Assembly (NCBI GenBank): GCA_018268515.1
Contig: JAFDWK010000061.1
Span: 1-37,805, forward strand
Length of the DNA: 37,805 nt
Direction: 5' to 3'
Source: Actinomycetota bacterium
GTDB lineage: Bacteria > Actinomycetota > Actinomycetes > Actinomycetales > Microbacteriaceae
The notes under the pieces are model-generated. The model saw only the letters and a program-made list of their open reading frames with translations. It was not told where the DNA came from and did not search any database. The position numbers and the translations under genes were made by a program. Shown piece by piece: positions 18,454 through 24,530 of the stretch. The first letter of the stretch is position 1. The number at the start of each line of letters is the position of its first letter.

Positions 18454-20006
18454 ACACGCGATCCGCTTCGCGCCTGCGCCGCATCGCCGCGGTGGCGGCA
18501 GGGCTCGTCGTCGCCTCGATGGCGCTGACCGGCTGCCTCTACTCCATGATCCCGGCGACATCGACGTCGGTCGGTCCGACCGCCCAGCCCGACACGTCGG
18601 GCGTCGCCGAAGACCTGAAGCCGTTCTACGAGCAGACGCTGAGCTGGTCCGCCTGCGGCACCGGGATGGACTGCACGACCGTGAAGACGCCGCTGGATTG
18701 GATGGATCCCGGCAAGGGATCCCTCGATCTCGCCGTGGTGCGTCATCGCGCCACGGGCACGTCGAAGGGCTCGCTGCTGACGAATCCGGGCGGGCCCGGC
18801 GCCAGCGGGCTCGATCTGATCAAGTCCAGCCTCAGCTATGCGGTCAGCCCGACCCTCGCCAAGAACTACGACGTGATCGGATTCGATCCGCGCGGGGTCG
18901 GGGCTTCCACGGCCGTGAAGTGCCTCGATGCGTCGCAGATGGACGACTACCTCTACACGATCCGACCGGGAGCGCGCGGCAGCGACCAGTGGACGGCGGC
19001 GCAGGAGGCGCAGAACAAGAAGTTCGCCGACGCCTGCGAGCAGAACAGCAAGGGGATCCTGCCGTACATCACGACCGTGAACTCCGCCCGGGACATGGAT
19101 CTGCTGCGCGGCGTGCTGGGCGACAAGAAGCTGAACTACCTCGGCTACTCGTACGGCACGTTCCTCGGGGCGACCTATGCGCAGCTGTATCCCGACCGCG
19201 TCGGGCACCTGGTCCTCGACGGTGCGCTGGATCCGGCGGTGTCCAGCCTCGACGTCAACACGACCCAGGCGATCGGGTTCGAGTCGGCGCTGCGCGCCTA
19301 CATGACCGACTGCCTGAAGGGAAAGAAGTGCCCGTTCCAGGGCAGCGTCGACGAGGCGATGAGCGACCTCGGCGCGCTCCTGGCGAGCGTCGAGCGCTCG
19401 CCGCAGAAGAACGCCGACGGGCGCCTGCTGGGCGCCGACTCGCTGATGACCTCGATCGTCGCGGCGCTCTACTCCCAGGAGAACTGGTCGTACCTGACGC
19501 AGTCGCTCACCGCGGTGCTGAAGGGCGATCCGTCCATCGCGTTCCAGCTCGCGGACTTCTACAACAACCGCGAGAACGGGAAGTACACCAGCAACTCCAC
19601 CGAGGCGTTCCGGGCGTACAACTGCATGGATTACCCGCTCGAGAACGACCCCGCGGCCAAGGCGGCGTCGGATGCGAAGATCAAGGCCGAGGCGCCGACC
19701 GTCGCCCCGTACTGGGACGGGCCCGACCCCTGCGAGCAGTGGCCGTATCCGCCCACCGGCAAACGCGGCAAGATCACCGCGGCCGGATCCGGTCCGATCC
19801 TCGTGATCGGGACGACGAACGATCCGGCCACGCCGTACGCCTGGGCCGAGTCGCTGGCGAAGCAGCTCGAGGGCGGGATCCTGATCACCCGTGTCGGCGA
19901 GGGCCACACCGGCTACAACAAGGGCAACTCCTGCGTGGACGACGCCGTGGACGCCTACTTCGTCGACGGCACCGTGCCGGACAAGGCGGGCATCCGCTGC
20001 GAGTAG
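18450..20006 (+). CDS. Secreted alpha/beta-hydrolase lipoprotein (tripeptidyl aminopeptidase family)
   Basis: A 518-residue exported hydrolase. The signal peptide ends in ALTGC, a lipobox with Cys29, so it is probably a lipoprotein. The fold shows LTNPGGPGASG (oxyanion region), IGFDPRGVG, the nucleophile elbow GYSYGTF with Ser234, acid GTTNDPATP with Asp458, and EGHTGY with His486. The C-terminal TAP-like domain is present. Relatives are the Streptomyces SlpD/SlpE and Tap tripeptidyl aminopeptidases; the exact substrate is unknown. The ATG overlaps the holB stop (ATGA), an odd pairing that is probably transcriptional convenience. Confidence 0.93.
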   Translation: MNTRSASRLRRIAAVAAGLVVASMALTGCLYSMIPATSTSVGPTAQPDTSGVAEDLKPFYEQTLSWSACGTGMDCTTVKTPLDWMDPGKGSLDLAVVRHRATGTSKGSLLTNPGGPGASGLDLIKSSLSYAVSPTLAKNYDVIGFDPRGVGASTAVKCLDASQMDDYLYTIRPGARGSDQWTAAQEAQNKKFADACEQNSKGILPYITTVNSARDMDLLRGVLGDKKLNYLGYSYGTFLGATYAQLYPDRVGHLVLDGALDPAVSSLDVNTTQAIGFESALRAYMTDCLKGKKCPFQGSVDEAMSDLGALLASVERSPQKNADGRLLGADSLMTSIVAALYSQENWSYLTQSLTAVLKGDPSIAFQLADFYNNRENGKYTSNSTEAFRAYNCMDYPLENDPAAKAASDAKIKAEAPTVAPYWDGPDPCEQWPYPPTGKRGKITAAGSGPILVIGTTNDPATPYAWAESLAKQLEGGILITRVGEGHTGYNKGNSCVDDAVDAYFVDGTVPDKAGIRCE

Positions 20007-20043
20007 CCGGGTGCGGGCCGCGGATCGGGGTTGGGCCGCGCCC

Positions 20044-20069
20044 GGGGTGCGCGTGGTTCGCAGCACCCC
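20044..20069 (+). terminator. Hairpin between the peptidase gene and tRNA-Thr
   Basis: GGGGTGC (20044-20050) pairs with GCACCCC (20063-20069) around a 12-nt loop, 38 bp after the stop codon. There is no T-run. It overlaps the presumed -35 region of the tRNA promoter. Confidence 0.5.
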
Positions 20070-20086
20070 CGTGGACAGGGTAAGAT
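20057..20086 (+). promoter_or_regulatory. Putative promoter of tRNA-Thr
   Basis: TTCGCA (20057-20062) and TAAGAT (20081-20086), spacing 18 bp, lie 45 bp before the mature tRNA 5' end. The -10 box is good, the -35 weak. Confidence 0.5.
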
Positions 20087-20131
20087 CGTTGTTCGTGCGG
20101 TTCGCCCGCATGCGCATCCGCCAGGGTGTGC

Positions 20132-20204
20132 GCCGCCCTAGCTCAGTCGGCAGAGCATTTCACTCGTAATGAAAAGGTCAAGGGTTCGATTCCCTTGGGC
20201 GGCT
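20132..20204 (+). tRNA. tRNA-Thr (anticodon CGT)
   Basis: The cloverleaf is complete: acceptor GCCGCCC/GGGCGGC, D arm GCTC/GAGC, anticodon stem TTTCA/TGAAA with loop CTCGTAA (anticodon CGT, reading ACG), and T arm AAGGG/CCCTT with loop TTCGATT. The discriminator is T and CCA is not encoded. Confidence 0.97.
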
Positions 20205-20210
20205 CGACTA

Positions 20211-20250
20211 AGAAGGCCCGATCAGGAAATAATTCCAGATCGGGCCTTCT
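20211..20250 (+). terminator. Terminator of tRNA-Thr
   Basis: AGAAGGCCCGATC (20211-20223) and GATCGGGCCTTCT (20238-20250) form a perfect 13-bp stem around an AT-rich 14-nt loop, seven bases after the tRNA. Confidence 0.85.
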
Positions 20251-20298
20251 GTATGCTCGGGTGAGTTCGTGGGGCGAACGCGGGGCGCCCTGCGTGGT

Positions 20299-20304
20299 TA
20301 CACT
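20299..20304 (+). promoter_or_regulatory. -10 box of pncA, leaderless type
   Basis: TACACT is followed by six bases (CGACGC) and the ATG at 20311. No ribosome site is present, and this favours 20311 over an in-frame GTG 42 bases upstream. Confidence 0.6.
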
Positions 20305-20310
20305 CGACGC

Positions 20311-20961
20311 ATGACCCGCGCACTGCTGATCGTCGACGTGCAGAACGACTTCACGGAAGGCGGCGCGCTCGCCGTGGCCGGCGGCGATGCGGTGGCCCGC
20401 GGCGTGAGCGCGCTGCTGCGTGAGCATGGCGCCGACTATGACGTCATCGTGGCCTCGCGCGACTGGCACGACCCCACAGGGGACAACGGCGGGCACTTCT
20501 CCGCGCAGCCCGACTTCGTCGACAGCTGGCCGGTGCACTGCGTCGCCGAGACGTCCGGCGCCGCCTACGACCCGCTGCTGGACACGACCGCCGTCACCCA
20601 CCACGTGCGCAAGGGTCAGGGCAAGCCGGCGTACTCGATGTTCGAGGGCGTGACAGAAGCGGGGGAGACCGTGGCCGGGATCCTGTCCGCGCACGGGGTG
20701 GTCACCGCCGACGTGGTCGGCATCGCGACCGATCATTGCGTGCGCGCCTCGGCGGCCGACGCGATCGCGCACGGGGTGCACGTGCGGATCCTGACCGACC
20801 TCGTCGCCGGTGTCGGCGCGGAATCGAGCGAGGCCGCACTGGCCGAACTCGCGCACGCGGGGGCCGAGCTGGTCGACAGCCCCGGCGGCGGAGCAGCGTC
20901 CGACGGCTCCGCCGCGTCGACCGATGGCCCCGGAACGACGTCCGACGGCGCCGCCGGGTGA
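20311..20961 (+). CDS. pncA: Nicotinamidase (isochorismatase family)
   Basis: Hydrolyses nicotinamide to nicotinate in NAD salvage; in mycobacteria the same enzyme activates pyrazinamide. The catalytic triad is in place with mycobacterial-like spacing: Asp9 in VDVQNDF, Lys101 in HHVRKGQ (or Lys105), and Cys143 in ATDHCVR. The metal site shows Asp51 and His53 in SRDWHDP, His62 in GGHFSA, and His76 in WPVHC. The protein has 216 residues; the last 30 are a Gly/Ala/Ser-rich tail absent from typical PncA. Its stop overlaps the next gene's GTG. Confidence 0.92.
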   Translation: MTRALLIVDVQNDFTEGGALAVAGGDAVARGVSALLREHGADYDVIVASRDWHDPTGDNGGHFSAQPDFVDSWPVHCVAETSGAAYDPLLDTTAVTHHVRKGQGKPAYSMFEGVTEAGETVAGILSAHGVVTADVVGIATDHCVRASAADAIAHGVHVRILTDLVAGVGAESSEAALAELAHAGAELVDSPGGGAASDGSAASTDGPGTTSDGAAG

Positions 20962-21503
20962 GCGTTGAGCGTTGCGCACTGCTTCTGCGAGCGGTGAACC
21001 TGGGCACCAGGAACAAGGTGCCGATGGCCGAGCTCCGGTCGTTGATGACCGCGCAACTGGATCTCGGGGAGGTGAGCACCTATATCGCCAGCGGCAACGT
21101 GATCTGCGACGTACCGGCCGATCGTGACAGGGTGTGCGCCGAGGTGCGCACCCTCATCCACGATCGCTTCGGGGTGGACACGCCGGTGGTCCTGCGCACG
21201 CATGCGGAGCTGGAAGTGGTGCTCGACGAGAATCCGTTCCCCGATGCGGCGAACGACAAGCTGCTGCACGTCATGTTCCTGGAGGGTGCGCCTCAGGACG
21301 GCGCCGTCGACGCGCTCACCGCGCGCCTCATCCCCGGGGAGCGGATCGCTCTTGCAGGGCACGACCTCTGGATCGACTACGCGCCGGGCGGAGTGCATAC
21401 GACCAGGCTGACACGCGCGGTCCTGGATCGTGCCCTCGGCGTCGCCGGCACGGCCCGCAACCTGCGCACCGTGCAGAAGCTCGCCGAGCTCACCGCCGGC
21501 TGA
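20958..21503 (+). CDS. DUF1697 family protein
   Basis: A 181-residue protein matching DUF1697: it starts MSVERCALLLRAVNLGTRNKV, then MAELRSLM, VSTYIASGNVI, the NPFP segment and the C-terminal TARNLRTVQKLAEL (R-W-T/R-L-T-V-KL-like motif). The GTG at 20958 overlaps the pncA stop, so the two are co-transcribed. The biochemical function of this family is not established. A strong terminator shared with the opposing tRNA-Lys gene lies 111 bp downstream. Confidence 0.9.
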   Translation: MSVERCALLLRAVNLGTRNKVPMAELRSLMTAQLDLGEVSTYIASGNVICDVPADRDRVCAEVRTLIHDRFGVDTPVVLRTHAELEVVLDENPFPDAANDKLLHVMFLEGAPQDGAVDALTARLIPGERIALAGHDLWIDYAPGGVHTTRLTRAVLDRALGVAGTARNLRTVQKLAELTAG

Positions 21504-21614
21504 GACCCCGCTCGCGCCGTCGCAACCTGCGGTCGAGTCCGCTTTCGACAGCGCGGGCCGGCGCAGGTGCCGCTGCCCGAGCCATCGCCGCACCGAGCGA
21601 GCTGAACGAACGGC

Positions 21615-21650
21615 AGGAGGGGCCCGGTCAGTGTTGACCGGGCCCCTCCT
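21615..21650. terminator. Bidirectional terminator between the DUF1697 gene and tRNA-Lys
   Basis: AGGAGGGGCCCGGTCA (21615-21630) and TGACCGGGCCCCTCCT (21635-21650) make a perfect 16-bp stem with loop GTGT. It ends five bases past the tRNA-Lys 3' end and serves both convergent units. Confidence 0.85.
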
Positions 21651-21655
21651 CACGG

Positions 21656-21946
21656 TGGGCCCCGTGGGGCTCGAACCCACGACCCGCGGATTAACCTGCC
21701 ACTTCGGCTTTCGCCGCCGCCCGATGGACGTTCGTGGTCTGGACTGTCCCTTCACCCTGGCTTGCGCTGTAGGTGCCACCCGTCCAGTCTCTACACCTTC
21801 CGGACTCGCGCCCGGCTTGGCTCGGGATTGCCAACTGGTCTCCCAGGAAGGGTTCCCCGACTTTGAGTGGTGTCATCCCCGGGGTTTCCCCCGGGGCGCT
21901 CCTATTGTGTTGAAGTCCGATGCTCTGCCAACTGAGCTAGAGGCCC
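21656..21946 (-). tRNA. tRNA-Lys (anticodon TTT) interrupted by a group I intron
   Basis: Joining 21946-21913 (34 nt) to 21694-21656 (39 nt) on the minus strand gives a complete 73-nt tRNA. The acceptor stem is GGGCCTC/GGGGCCC with one G-U pair, the D arm GCTC/GAGC, and the anticodon stem TCGGA/TCCGC with four of five pairs. The anticodon loop is CTT+TTAA, anticodon TTT, spliced between positions 34 and 35. The T arm is GTGGG/CCCAC with loop TTCGAGC, and the discriminator is A. CCA is not encoded (CCG follows). Exon junction, loop size and anticodon agree only if exactly 218 nt are removed. An uninterrupted-gene search would miss it or call a pseudogene. TTT is the wobble-reading lysine tRNA; whether it is the only copy is not visible here. 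Confidence 0.93.
21695..21912 (-). ncRNA. Group I self-splicing intron in tRNA-Lys
   Basis: This 218-nt insertion shows group I hallmarks. The 5' exon ends in U, and CTT can pair with GAG at intron nt 12-14 through a terminal U-G pair (P1). The last intron base is G. P2 is a perfect CCCCGGGG/CCCCGGGG hairpin with a GAAA loop (21877-21896). The Q-like segment AATCCCGAGCC (21819-21829) supplies CCCGA that pairs with TCGGG upstream (P4). The R-like segment AGAGACTGGACGGG and S-like GACAGTCCAGACC pair as GACTG (21785-21789) with CAGTC (21742-21746), the P7 guanosine-binding helix. A GCGAAAGC hairpin precedes the 3' end. From memory the order and wording resemble the cyanobacterial tRNA-Leu(UAA) intron, subgroup IC3. 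No open frame or homing endonuclease is present. Confidence 0.9.
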
Positions 21947-21955
21947 GTGCTCTCG

Positions 21956-21961
21956 AGTCTA
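21956..21961 (-). promoter_or_regulatory. -10 box of tRNA-Lys
   Basis: On the minus strand TAGACT ends 9 nt before the first base of the mature tRNA, so the primary transcript would start at or just before the tRNA itself. The -35 region is weak. Confidence 0.5.
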
Positions 21962-21999
21962 ATGGTCGCGACTGGGTGCCTTGCGTCGGTCGGCGCGCG

Positions 22000-22005
22000 T
22001 AGCCT
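22000..22005 (+). promoter_or_regulatory. -10 box of the 22012 gene, leaderless type
   Basis: TAGCCT is six bases before the GTG at 22012 and no ribosome site is present. It is divergent from the tRNA-Lys promoter. Confidence 0.55.
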
Positions 22006-22011
22006 GGGTCG

Positions 22012-22641
22012 GTGCCCGCGCCCTTCCATCGCCCCGTCCGCCTCTCCCCGGAGACGTTCGACAACCTGCTCGGATCCCATGACCCGGCCGAGCAGACCCG
22101 GATGGCGCACGCCACGGCCTCGGCTCTGCTGGCGCGCGTGCGCGCGGACGACAGCGGCGTGAGTGCGGAGCGTCTCGTGGCGTATGCGACCGAGCACGGC
22201 ATAGACGAGGTCGCCGAGCTCTGGGCGAAGAGCCCCGCGGTGTCGCTGCCGGGGGCGCTCTGGCGGCTGTACCTGCTGCAGGCGTCCATCCATGCGGATC
22301 CGCTGTTCGCCGCGCTCCTGCACGAGCGCGGACGCGTCGAGCTGCCCTCGGCCGACGCGCTCGTCGCCGGTGCGCCGGTGCCGGCCGGTCCCGACGAACT
22401 CGTCGGCCTGATCGACACGATCCTGCACGGCGCGTTCTCCGGCGACTTCGCGATCGCGCTCGAACGGGCCGCCGCCTTCTGCCGGGTGCAGGCGTCCGGG
22501 GCCACGCACATCGCCGACGACTACGACCCGACCGAGCCTGATCGGGCCAGCGAACTCACGACGCGTGCCGCCCGGCTCAGCGCCTACGCCCAGGACCTGA
22601 CGGCTTCGGCCGCCGCCTGGCGCGACGGCTCGCTGAACTGA
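22012..22641 (+). CDS. Conserved-looking hypothetical protein
   Basis: A 209-residue soluble protein I do not recognise. It begins with GTG (MPAPFHRPVRLSPETFDNLL) and is almost entirely predicted alpha-helical, with PGALWRLYLLQASIHADP and LIDTILHGAFSGDFAIALERAAAF as its most structured parts and a helical C-terminus rich in Ala, Ser and Arg. There is no signal peptide or membrane segment. Codon use is typical of the window and the frame is uninterrupted, so it is a real gene. The Leu/Ala-rich helical repeats suggest a binding rather than catalytic role, but this is a guess. Confidence 0.8.
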   Translation: MPAPFHRPVRLSPETFDNLLGSHDPAEQTRMAHATASALLARVRADDSGVSAERLVAYATEHGIDEVAELWAKSPAVSLPGALWRLYLLQASIHADPLFAALLHERGRVELPSADALVAGAPVPAGPDELVGLIDTILHGAFSGDFAIALERAAAFCRVQASGATHIADDYDPTEPDRASELTTRAARLSAYAQDLTASAAAWRDGSLN

Positions 22642-22665
22642 GCGGATCCGCCGGAGGCTCCGGGT

Positions 22666-22671
22666 TAGGGT
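22666..22671 (+). promoter_or_regulatory. -10 box upstream of the VOC gene
   Basis: TAGGGT lies seven bases before an ATG that opens a 19-codon frame and 127 bases before the VOC ATG. It is either a leaderless promoter for the small frame or the VOC promoter with a long leader. Confidence 0.4.
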
Positions 22672-22678
22672 GGGATCG

Positions 22679-22738
22679 ATGATGACCAGTCAGGCCCGCG
22701 CGGGCCGTTCCCGGATCGGCGATCTGGTCGCCGACTGA
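22679..22738 (+). CDS. Putative 19-residue leader peptide
   Basis: The frame reads MMTSQARAGRSRIGDLVAD and stops at TGA (22736-22738). Its ATG stands at the leaderless distance from a TAGGGT box, and it ends 60 bp before the VOC gene. The same DNA contains the GC-rich palindrome GGCCCGCGCGGGCC, which could be a hairpin. Position and spacing are the only evidence; it may be untranslated leader. Confidence 0.3.
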   Translation: MMTSQARAGRSRIGDLVAD

Positions 22739-22798
22739 GCCGCGCACCTCCTCTCCTGTGCCGTCCCCGACAGCGCAGAACAGACACAGAGGAGAGAC

Positions 22799-23173
22799 AT
22801 GACAGCGCATTTCAACCACACGATCATCGCGTCCATCGACGCCGCAGAGATGGCGGACTTCTACCGCGACCTGCTCGAAGCAGTGGAGGCCCCGTCCTGG
22901 GGGCCGTTCACGAACGTACAGATCGGAGGCGGGATCCTGCTGCAGTTCGCGACGCCGCCGATCGAGTTCCCGCCCCAGCACTACGCCTATCTCGTGGATG
23001 ACGACCACTTCGATCGCGCCTACGCGACGATCACCGGACGGGGGATCGCGCACTGGGCGGACCCGCAGCGCACCAGGCCGGGCGAGATCAATCACGAGCA
23101 CGACGGCCGAGGTGTGTACCTGCTGGATCCATCCGGGCACTATCTCGAGCTGCTCACGCGTCCGTACTTGTGA
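22799..23173 (+). CDS. VOC family protein (glyoxalase/bleomycin resistance fold)
   Basis: A 124-residue single-domain protein with paired beta-alpha-beta-beta-beta modules. It starts MTAHFNHTIIASIDAAEMADFYRDLL, a first His in the metal-ligand position (NHT), has HYAYLVDDDHFD in the middle, and ends GRGVYLLDPSGHYLELLTRPY, the classic VOC terminus with Glu as last metal ligand. Members include dioxygenases, lyases and drug-binding proteins; the specificity is not determinable here. GAGGAGAG just before the ATG is a good ribosome site, in contrast with the leaderless genes nearby. Confidence 0.9.
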   Translation: MTAHFNHTIIASIDAAEMADFYRDLLEAVEAPSWGPFTNVQIGGGILLQFATPPIEFPPQHYAYLVDDDHFDRAYATITGRGIAHWADPQRTRPGEINHEHDGRGVYLLDPSGHYLELLTRPYL

Positions 23174-23583
23174 GAGCCGGGCCGGCCTCGGTCCTGGCAT
23201 GAAAGAGCCGGGCCGCAAGAACGCCTCTCGGCGGAAGGCCGCTCGCAGCGGCGAAAAATGGAGCCCGGGGTTATGCGGCCCGGCCGATCAAGTGTAACGC
23301 GTCGACCCGGTTGGTATTCCCGTCGGCGCGAACGCCCGACGGCCGGTCCAGACGCCCGACGGCCGGCCCGGCCGCGACGCCGGACGTCCGGCCCCGGCGT
23401 TCGACGGCCGACTCGGACGCCGGACACCGGCATGGCCGCGATGCCGGCCCACGACGCCGACCGCCCGGCTCCCGGACGCGACGCCGGCACGCGGCCGGGA
23501 CGCCGGCACGCAGCGTTGAACACGTGACGCCGGACGGCGACGTCGACCAGGCTGGGGCGTGCGGATCCGTCCCGGCCAGCCCT
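23174..23583. repeat. Gene-free GC-rich stretch with recurrent GACGCCGG words
   Basis: About 410 bp without a supported gene. GACGCCGG occurs at 23376, 23416, 23480, 23499 and 23526, and GACGCCCG or CGCCCGACGGCCGG variants occur at about 23330-23370. Several are followed by an inverted CCGG or CCGGC, making short palindromes. The first part (23176-23280) holds hairpin-forming GAGCCGGGCCG words that may end VOC transcription. No frame has a plausible start and codon bias across it. Confidence 0.55.
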
Positions 23584-23589
23584 TAGGCT
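23584..23589 (+). promoter_or_regulatory. -10 box of pabC, leaderless type
   Basis: TAGGCT is six bases (CTGATC) before the ATG at 23596, with no ribosome site. Confidence 0.6.
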
Positions 23590-23595
23590 CTGATC

Positions 23596-24474
23596 ATGGA
23601 CCGCCGTTTCGCGCTGATGATCGAGCCCGCCGCCGACGTTCGGACCGACTATTCGGACACGTTCGCCATCGTGGACGCTTCGGCGCCCGCGCTCAGCGTC
23701 GGAGAGCTCAGCACGCAGCGCGGAGACGGCGTGTTCGAGTCGATCGGGGTCGTCGACACGCATGCGCAGGAGACCGAGCCCCACCTGCAGCGTCTGGCCC
23801 ACTCCGCGCGGCTGTGCGAGCTGCCCGAACCGAACCTCGCGCAGTGGCGGCAGGCGATCGGTGTCGCCGCGGCGCAGTGCGGACCGGGGGAGAGCGTGAT
23901 CAAGCTCATCCTCAGCCGCGGCGTCGACCACGGCCCTGCCCCGACCGCGTGGGTCACGGCGGCCCCCGCCCCGGACTTCTCCGCCGCGCGCACGTCCGGG
24001 ATCCGTGTCGTCACGCTCGACCGCGGCTACGACAGCGGTGCGGCCGAGCGCTCCCCGTGGCTGCTGCTCGGGGCGAAGACGCTCTCCTACGCGGTGAACA
24101 TGGCGGCCCTGCGCGAAGCGCACCGCCGCGGCGCCGACGACGCGATCTTCGTGACCACGGACGGCGTCGTGCTGGAGGCTCCCACGGCGTCGCTCATCCT
24201 GCGCTTCGGGGATCGCTTCGTCACGCCGGCGCCGCACGGGGGCATCCTGCAGGGCACGACGCAGATCAGCCTGTTCGCGCACCTCGTGCAGCAGGGCTTC
24301 GCCACCGAGTACGCCACCGTGCCGACCGCCGACCTCACCCGCGCGGACCAGGCGTGGCTGCTCTCCAGCGTGCGCCTGGCCGCCCCGATCACCGCGATCG
24401 ACGACGCGGCTCTCACTGTGGACCACGCGTTCACCGACGCCCTGAACGCCTACCTGCTCTCCCCGCGCGACTGA
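23596..24474 (+). CDS. pabC: Aminodeoxychorismate lyase (class IV aminotransferase fold)
   Basis: A PLP enzyme of 292 residues that would cleave 4-amino-4-deoxychorismate to p-aminobenzoate and pyruvate for folate synthesis. Fold-IV marks are RGDGVFESI, the catalytic Lys161 in LGAKTLSYAVNMAA, DDAIFVTTDGVVLEAPTAS, and GGILQGTTQ (PLP phosphate loop). Class IV enzymes also include branched-chain and D-amino-acid aminotransferases. The actinobacterial synteny with ygfZ and nitrobindin-like genes and the fused pabAB at the end of this window favour PabC. Confidence 0.87.
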   Translation: MDRRFALMIEPAADVRTDYSDTFAIVDASAPALSVGELSTQRGDGVFESIGVVDTHAQETEPHLQRLAHSARLCELPEPNLAQWRQAIGVAAAQCGPGESVIKLILSRGVDHGPAPTAWVTAAPAPDFSAARTSGIRVVTLDRGYDSGAAERSPWLLLGAKTLSYAVNMAALREAHRRGADDAIFVTTDGVVLEAPTASLILRFGDRFVTPAPHGGILQGTTQISLFAHLVQQGFATEYATVPTADLTRADQAWLLSSVRLAAPITAIDDAALTVDHAFTDALNAYLLSPRD

Positions 24475-24530
24475 GCCGGAGTGGATCCGGATCCGCTCCG
24501 GTGCGCCCTTGCCCGACCGGCAGCTCCCGC

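Follow-up and report, generated by a model that had tools for sequence, protein, structure and literature searches.

A tRNA-Lys(UUU) gene split by a group I intron in an actinobacterial genome, and its probable past partnership with a free-standing HNH endonuclease

The window considered here, namely, the whole stretch of 37,805 nucleotides, carries on its minus strand (21946-21656 in the window sequence) a tRNA-Lys(UUU) gene interrupted by a group I intron. The initial annotation had described such a gene, with a 218-nt group I intron between positions 34 and 35, and the sequence itself, a match to the Rfam group I model RF00028 and a fold scored on relatives all agree on this point. The gene and the element that follows it are made up as listed below.

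21913..21946, minus strand: 5' exon of tRNA-Lys(UUU), positions 1-34, with CUU34 at its 3' end (sequence; ARAGORN on the spliced form)
21695..21912, minus strand: group I intron, IC3-like, 218 nt, between U34 and U35, ending in G (RF00028; fold on 55 relatives)
21656..21694, minus strand: 3' exon of tRNA-Lys(UUU), positions 35-73, beginning UUAAUCC (sequence; ARAGORN on the spliced form)
21614..21651, no strand given: GC-rich hairpin directly 3' of the tRNA, a probable terminator (weak miRNA-model matches)

When the two exons were joined in silico, ARAGORN called the product tRNA-Lys(ttt), i.e., a normal tRNA-Lys once spliced, as had been predicted for removal of the 218 nt. The unspliced gene was detected neither by ARAGORN with default settings nor by the Rfam tRNA model, the window yielding two different tRNAs and no more in either search; the expectation that standard searches would miss the gene was thus borne out. 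With introns permitted, ARAGORN did detect the gene, with the splice sites placed differently and the label Asn(gtt). The suggested comparison with RF00028 yielded a match at 21922-21724 of the minus strand over the full length of the model, with an E-value of 3.5e-6 and a score of 30.8 bits, as against a curated cut-off of 50; the scores of relatives were likewise low (21-41 bits). The U at the 5' junction, in a U.G pair at the 5' splice site, and the G at the intron end, both noted earlier, are present in the window sequence. The intron appears to hold no gene of its own, as had also been stated; among ORFs of at least 60 aa only one, of 61 aa, is almost wholly intronic, with the longer ORFs traversing the intron. 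An HNH gene within the intron was ruled out by tblastn of window positions 19001-24500, none of the matches listed having an E-value below 0.09. Hairpins comparable to that 3' of the tRNA were seen by eye at five of the 11 relatives listed (L140, L034, L035, L195 and L209).

To describe the fold, the P2-P9 structure, including P3 and P7, was drawn from the window sequence and scored on 55 distinct tRNA-Lys introns from Microbacterium, Nesterenkonia, Tsukamurella, Prauserella, Phytoactinopolyspora, Actinomyces, Frankiales bins, Alphaproteobacteria and phages. In order along the minus strand, the elements are the following.

21899..21904, minus strand: internal guide UAG-GAG; GAG with 5' exon CUU (P1, G.U34), UAG with 3' exon UUA (P10)
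21877..21896, minus strand: P2 with GAAA loop; 97.0% of cells paired, 6 of 8 pairs altered on both sides
21865..21870, minus strand: P3 5' strand, partner 21776-21781; 100% paired, 5 of 6 pairs altered on both sides
21822..21860, minus strand: P4-P5 domain; P4 100% paired, 4 of 5 P4 pairs invariant
21795..21820, minus strand: P6-P6a (fold scored on 55 introns)
21786..21791, minus strand: P7 5' strand with bulged A, partner 21741-21745; identical in 55 of 55 introns, though part of the selection pattern
21776..21781, minus strand: P3 3' strand, same helix as 21865-21870
21753..21775, minus strand: P8; main helix 88.0% of cells paired, last pair failing in 33 of the 54 introns with letters there
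21741..21745, minus strand: P7 3' strand; identical in 55 of 55 introns, outside the selection pattern
21699..21737, minus strand: P9-P9b; 99.3-100% paired

Over the 55 introns, 97.8% of cells were paired, 30 of the 56 pairs were altered on both sides and 183 cells held double changes, with none of 500 shuffled controls attaining any of the five measures. When the partner strands were slid, pairing fell to 26.9-47.8%, a contrast that is partly built in because the structure was drawn from one of the 55 introns, the double changes being exempt from this. Similarly, the pattern used to select the introns required the terminal G, GAGCCAAG and GARGGTGNAGAGACT, covering the P7 5' strand, so that the constancy of these stretches is partly built in. 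P2 with its GAAA loop and the complementary P4 strands, both described on first reading, were upheld by the scores listed. The complementarity of P7 was seen as claimed, its five pairs being kept in 55 of 55 introns, but this helix is conserved rather than proved by covariation, since it is invariant and its 5' strand, which we take from known group I introns to be the guanosine site, belongs to the selection pattern. The group I core, P3-P8 with a P3/P7 pseudoknot, is accordingly present, P3 by covariation and P7 by constancy only.

The internal guide, U9A10G11-G12A13G14, is able to pair with both exons, forming P1 with C32U33U34 and P10 with U35U36A37. The guide AUAGGAG accompanies the 3' exon UUAAUC in 43 of 48 tRNA-Lys loci (L076-L164; the other five misfit), G-rich guides (10 AUGGGAG and 2 UUGGGAG) accompany UAAUC in 12 of 15 loci, and AUACGAG accompanies GUAAUC in both of two phage tRNA-Thr(UGU) loci. 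In these loci, the guide mostly follows the host anticodon loop. Viral contigs L156 and L160 hold tRNA-Thr(UGU) genes with group I introns in which the guide matches the Thr anticodon loop.

The genome that holds the window is 96% complete and gave 41 tRNA matches, two of them in the window. When the 39 others were extracted and examined with ARAGORN, 38 were decoded, the sole Lys among them being CTT; the remaining match (L075, 42.9 bits) drew no ARAGORN call. Neither a normal nor a recoded Lys(UUU) anticodon arm was found in this genome. As such, the split gene is the only tRNA-Lys(UUU) found there, and the second, intact copy that the initial annotation had advised looking for did not turn up. 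The codon AAA is rare yet used (4 AAA versus 159 AAG in 15 hand-picked window ORFs taken as genes). tRNA-Lys(CUU) is unable to read AAA, and tRNA-Lys(UUU) would be required for these codons.

Introns at 34|35 of tRNA-Lys(UUU) were also found in Microbacterium, Nesterenkonia, Tsukamurella, Prauserella, Phytoactinopolyspora and Actinomyces oricola, as well as in Frankiales bins, three alphaproteobacterial bins, one Gemmatimonadetes bin and phage contigs. The supposition that the intron is peculiar to the present lineage must therefore be given up. The tree of the Lys introns was poorly resolved and did not reject a single Microbacterium clade (45% of bootstrap trees), leaving transfer of the intron between genera unsupported. 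In Gordonia phage Daredevil (NC_048021; L038, 1494-1805), an unannotated tRNA-Lys(UUU) gene contains a 238-nt group I intron and lies near the integrase and an annotated HNH gene.

The proposed kinship with IC3 introns of tRNA-Leu was supported. Introns in tRNA-Leu(UAA) of plasmids, taken here as IC3, showed 74-76% identity to the window intron by blastn over 82-84% of the query; in all, 1277 of 72,556 plasmid records matched, with query coverage of 80% or more in 1254 of them. The host tRNA was recognized as Leu by ARAGORN for L039 and by eye for L037, for which ARAGORN gave Stop(tta). The window intron thus has the sequence kinship of the IC3 tRNA-Leu lineage and lacks its host tRNA-Leu(UAA), the host here being tRNA-Lys(UUU). 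On sequence grounds, it was filed as a relative, rather than a member, of that lineage, in a new host. The further suggestion that it had moved over from tRNA-Leu gains no support from the poorly resolved tree of the Lys introns. In the IncL/M plasmid pCTX-M3 (L037, 1477-1775), an IC3-like intron lies, by eye, within an apparent tRNA-Leu(UAA), and no annotated feature was seen beneath the plasmid intron matches among the 20 matches listed.

Examination by eye brought further placements to light. In Verrucomicrobia (L077, L088, L113, L139 and L147, one of these being Akkermansia), an IC3-like intron probably lies at 33|34 of a CAU tRNA, either Ile2 or Met, and in Rhodothermales and Bacteroidetes bins (L084, L092, L141 and L145) probably at 36|37 of tRNA-Arg(UCU). 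In Acetobacteraceae (L080, L115, L119, L130 and L146) and Sphingomonas (L076 and L148), tRNA-Lys(UUU) is apparently split at 35|36.

The state of Lys(UUU) was surveyed in 366 genomes of the same genus, taken to be Microbacterium on the basis of HNH domains identical to those of named Microbacterium records (L036/L110 and L105/L201). The window-type intron splits Lys(UUU) in 33 of these genomes, with both exons present in 31 and, in the other two, the 5' exon and core found by pattern. A second, larger group I intron occupies the same 34|35 site within a foreign Lys(UUU) body in 17 genomes, and a recoded, intronless Lys(UUU) replacement is found in 19. A normal anticodon arm with at most one mismatch was seen in 291 genomes among the matches listed, or 289 once G129 and G254, in which the native Lys(UUU) genes are broken though scored as normal arm, are removed; eight genomes of 44-88% completeness were assigned no state. 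Some of the one-mismatch matches to the normal arm, among those listed, are tRNA-Arg(UCU), while two-mismatch matches to the recoded arm, being tRNA-Asn(GUU) by anticodon, were excluded from the count. A whole normal tRNA was present at 29 of 30 sampled normal-arm loci, G129 being the exception. The presence of a normal working gene together with a replacement in one genome was ruled out, given the broken native genes of G129 and G254. The recoded tRNA was called Lys(ttt) by ARAGORN at seven of 12 loci and missed at five, making its activity less sure.

The surroundings of the gene were compared in 16 genomes, using 19-kb stretches (16 kb for L268) that represent four normal arms, two window introns, four second introns and six recoded tRNAs. 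Genes at 22012, 23596 and 24586 served as flank markers on one side, and the DUF1697 gene and those at 20269 and 18450 on the other; the two nearest markers are as follows.

22012..22641, plus strand: conserved neighbour with no Pfam match, upstream marker of the slot (slot comparison)
20736..21503, plus strand: DUF1697 gene (PF08002), downstream marker of the slot (Pfam)

Neighbours from the window were found on both flanks of the tRNA at 12 of the 16 loci, covering all four states, on one flank only in L259, L261 and L274, and on neither in L268, where a prophage carries the 22012-side neighbours at its far end. The different Lys(UUU) states occupy one common chromosomal slot.

Near the split gene of many relatives lies a gene for a protein of 150-200 aa that contains CxxC pairs as well as an HNH-like motif. 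Residues D91, H92, N128 and H130, read here as that motif, are invariant in 12 such sequences. Three of these flanking proteins, from Microbacterium, a Frankiaceae bin and phage Daredevil, match the HNH endonucleases of PHROG 2255 with E-values of 1.5e-30 to 6.7e-35 and phage endonuclease VII families more weakly, with no match to a Pfam family. A search of solved structures for relatives of the HNH protein returned a cytochrome as its best match (E 0.088), and the AlphaFold model of the protein has a mean pLDDT of 87.6.

The distribution of the HNH gene was then considered in all 366 genomes. Close HNH genes, defined by a cut-off set after inspection of the data as matches of at least 75 bits or partial matches with 68-71% identity, were found in 23 of the 33 window-intron genomes, 10 of the 17 second-intron genomes and 12 of the 19 recoded genomes; matches that scored below 75 bits and shared less than 65% identity were excluded, as were weak remnants in G384 and G049. 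Judged by coordinates, none of the 45 is more than about 1 kb from the tRNA, two being partial copies (49-51 bits) admitted on their 68-71% identity. By contrast, none of the 289 normal-arm genomes contained a close HNH gene. The association of HNH with an unusual Lys(UUU) state gave a Fisher p of 9e-41, with G129 and G254 left out and kinship among genomes ignored. The involvement of three different states and of both sides of the tRNA, the HNH position varying by locus, argues against one inherited accident. Distant HNH relatives of 34-49% identity were present elsewhere in 11 normal-arm genomes, and in the first 30 contiguous-arm loci no HNH was found within 1.5 kb.

The window is among the loci where the HNH gene is absent. 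Its genome gave no HNH match at an E-value of 1e-10, and no HNH gene lies between DUF1697 and the tRNA, tblastn of 19001-24500 giving E-values of at least 0.09 among the matches listed. In this it resembles 10 of the 33 window-intron genomes, which hold no close HNH. Decay of the gene was also seen, the G014 copy being split over two frames and G004 keeping a degraded HNH start. Beyond the genus, the HNH profile found nothing beside the introns of Nesterenkonia, Tsukamurella, Prauserella and Phytoactinopolyspora, where some stretches are short, and Cys-rich ORFs beside the introns of other genera included no convincing endonuclease among the 14 loci listed.

A class-wide search found HNH relatives in 10 of 394 genomes, seven of these outside the genus. 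In L278, L279 and L280, the HNH gene adjoins an intact, intronless tRNA-Lys(UUU) with a normal arm, which limits any rule of protection to the present genus. In L277, by eye, it adjoins a recoded tRNA-Lys(UUU), in L281 and L283 it lies near other tRNAs, and in L284 no tRNA was called. Distant relatives in L281, L282 (same genus) and L283 are found near Arg, Ser, His, Trp, Gly and Pro tRNA genes. There seems to be a general association between the HNH family and tRNA genes, and the family may home on such genes more widely.

Within the genus, any form next to HNH in which the normal arm halves CGGACTT/TTAATCCG are retained has an intron at 34|35; the intronless replacement beside HNH has the altered arm ACCGGCTTTTAACCGGT. 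Remnants of the native gene beside replacement tRNAs start at position 40 (G163 and G215), 36 (G254) and about 23 (G129). G129 apart, such starts and arm forms are what would be expected were the HNH protein to cut the anticodon arm and were survival to depend on a form without the intact target.

Taking these observations together, we consider it fairly probable that the intron in the only tRNA-Lys(UUU) gene found is self-splicing, that it spread through the genus as a pair with the HNH gene, and that the latter was subsequently lost from the window. The pre-tRNA would, as in known group I chemistry, splice itself in two guanosine-started steps directed by the UAG-GAG guide. Less certainly, the free-standing HNH protein encoded beside the tRNA would cut an intronless tRNA-Lys(UUU) in the anticodon arm, whereupon repair from the donor would copy both the intron and the HNH gene into the cut allele. 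The acquired intron would then split the target site and so protect the new host, in what is termed collaborative homing. A foreign tRNA with the second intron or a recoded intronless tRNA, some at least being prophage-borne, would give equal protection. The window would represent an end stage, with the intron fixed, the HNH gene lost and the intron retained, we propose, because the tRNA is needed. An adjoining free-standing endonuclease, as a collaborative homing pair has, is present in 23 of 33 relatives and absent from the window, and it is for this reason that the window was not filed as such a pair, only as a possible vestige of one.

More tentatively, and with the balance of our judgement somewhat against it, actinobacterial tRNA-Lys(UUU) might be seen as a contested slot, in which a tRNA-specific HNH endonuclease, and prophage integrases directed at the same anticodon arm, attack the normal gene and in which three 'antidotes', namely, the IC3-like intron in the native tRNA, the other intron in a foreign tRNA and the recoded tRNA, compete as forms of immunity.

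Prophages offer another account, which we regard as unlikely though deserving of attention. Here, the slot would be a prophage hot spot, with phages entering the anticodon arm together with a replacement tRNA, the HNH gene being a passenger and the intron an independent resident. Contig C11 of G254 (L292 1950-3425, L293 and L294) speaks for this, containing a prophage with integrase (PF00589), portal, terminase and tape-measure matches that splits the native tRNA-Lys(UUU) in the anticodon arm, with the native halves at the prophage ends overlapping by 6 bp (TAATCC). The prophage brings a recoded tRNA that adjoins the integrase, with HNH absent there; replacement tRNAs can therefore come with phages, and exclusion need not imply cutting. 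Indeed, the mutual exclusion of HNH and the normal arm could arise in the absence of cutting if HNH arrives solely in linkage with replacements. Fragments resembling integrases, located close to the second-intron loci in G002 and G129, and the proximity of intron-split tRNA-Lys, integrase and HNH gene in Daredevil, fit the same picture. Against it, the window-intron loci keep the native tRNA body and gave no match to two integrase queries, yet have HNH at a distance of up to about 1 kb in 23 of 33 cases. Moreover, HNH can lie on either side of the tRNA, and second-intron and recoded-tRNA partners are intermingled in the HNH tree, with weak support.

It is improbable that the intron is old, immobile and vertically kept, in the manner of that in cyanobacterial tRNA-Leu, with the HNH gene unrelated to it. 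The compatibility of the intron tree with one genus clade, the lack of a gene in the intron and the lack of HNH in the window would all agree with such a history, which does not sit well with the restriction of the intron to 33 of 366 genomes, with the occurrence of three further states in its slot, or with a close HNH and a normal arm never occurring together. Finally, a dead gene, i.e., a pseudogene tRNA with a non-splicing intron, to which the RF00028 score beneath the curated cut-off might point, is so improbable as to be set aside, given that no other Lys(UUU) was found in the genome, that both exons or, in two genomes, the 5' exon and core persist in all 33 genomes, that the fold is maintained by double changes and that the relatives score equally low. 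Spread of the intron together with HNH, followed by loss of the latter in the window, is thus the reading retained.

Collaborative homing has been put forward as a route by which introns lacking endonuclease genes gain mobility, and ORF-less tRNA introns may be more mobile than they appear. A genus with 366 genomes, four slot states and HNH genes that are intact, broken or gone would make the idea testable in culturable bacteria. Were the contested-slot reading true, an essential tRNA would owe its immunity to self-splicing introns, and bacterial chromosomes would provide a collaborative homing system built around a tRNA gene. As a needed tRNA gene was invisible to ARAGORN and Rfam defaults, 'missing' actinobacterial Lys(UUU) genes deserve to be re-checked.

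Neither for tRNA-Lys(UUU) nor for Microbacterium was a group I intron recognized in the open literature searched, which is weak evidence of absence, as most subscription papers lie outside it. Established hosts of group I introns include tRNA-Leu(UAA) of cyanobacteria and plastids (IC3) and tRNA-Arg(CCU). The cyanobacterial and plastid tRNA-Leu IC3 introns share with the window intron the same anticodon-loop site, a CUU/GAG P1, small size and a close core. Unlike these, the window intron resides in tRNA-Lys(UUU), the P10 half of its guide fits UUA, and introns of its type are patchily distributed in one genus, frequently with an HNH gene as neighbour. The introns of tRNA-Arg(CCU), tRNA-Ile2(CAU) and tRNA-fMet lie in other tRNAs and at another site in the loop; the first likewise hides its gene from tRNA finders. 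Group I introns that hide their genes in the same way are described for tRNA-Ile2(CAU) and tRNA-fMet (PMC8450103). 'Group I introns' of 22-49 nt claimed in 2017 for cyanobacterial tRNA-Arg, -Gly and -Lys(CTT) (PMC5733544) were dismissed as group I because a group I core would not fit into so few nucleotides; the anticodon also differs.

A 2014 review places every phage group I intron known at the time within protein genes (PMC3984707), and it is for this reason that the Daredevil tRNA-Lys intron is of interest. The same review knows collaborative homing from two phage systems (PMC3984707). Regarding PHROG 2255, two of the three matching proteins here are chromosomal and lie beside tRNA-Lys, and none has a Pfam match. 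A close parallel in arrangement is the psbA intron of cyanophage S-PM2 and F-CphI, in which collaborative homing involves a free-standing endonuclease encoded beside the host gene (PMC6083498; PMC3984707). Relative to psbA and F-CphI, the present case involves a bacterial chromosome, a tRNA gene, another endonuclease family and three alternative forms, and cleavage is putative, with the endonuclease absent in the window. As with psbA and F-CphI, a group I intron and a free-standing endonuclease gene adjoining the host gene would both be tied to one site.
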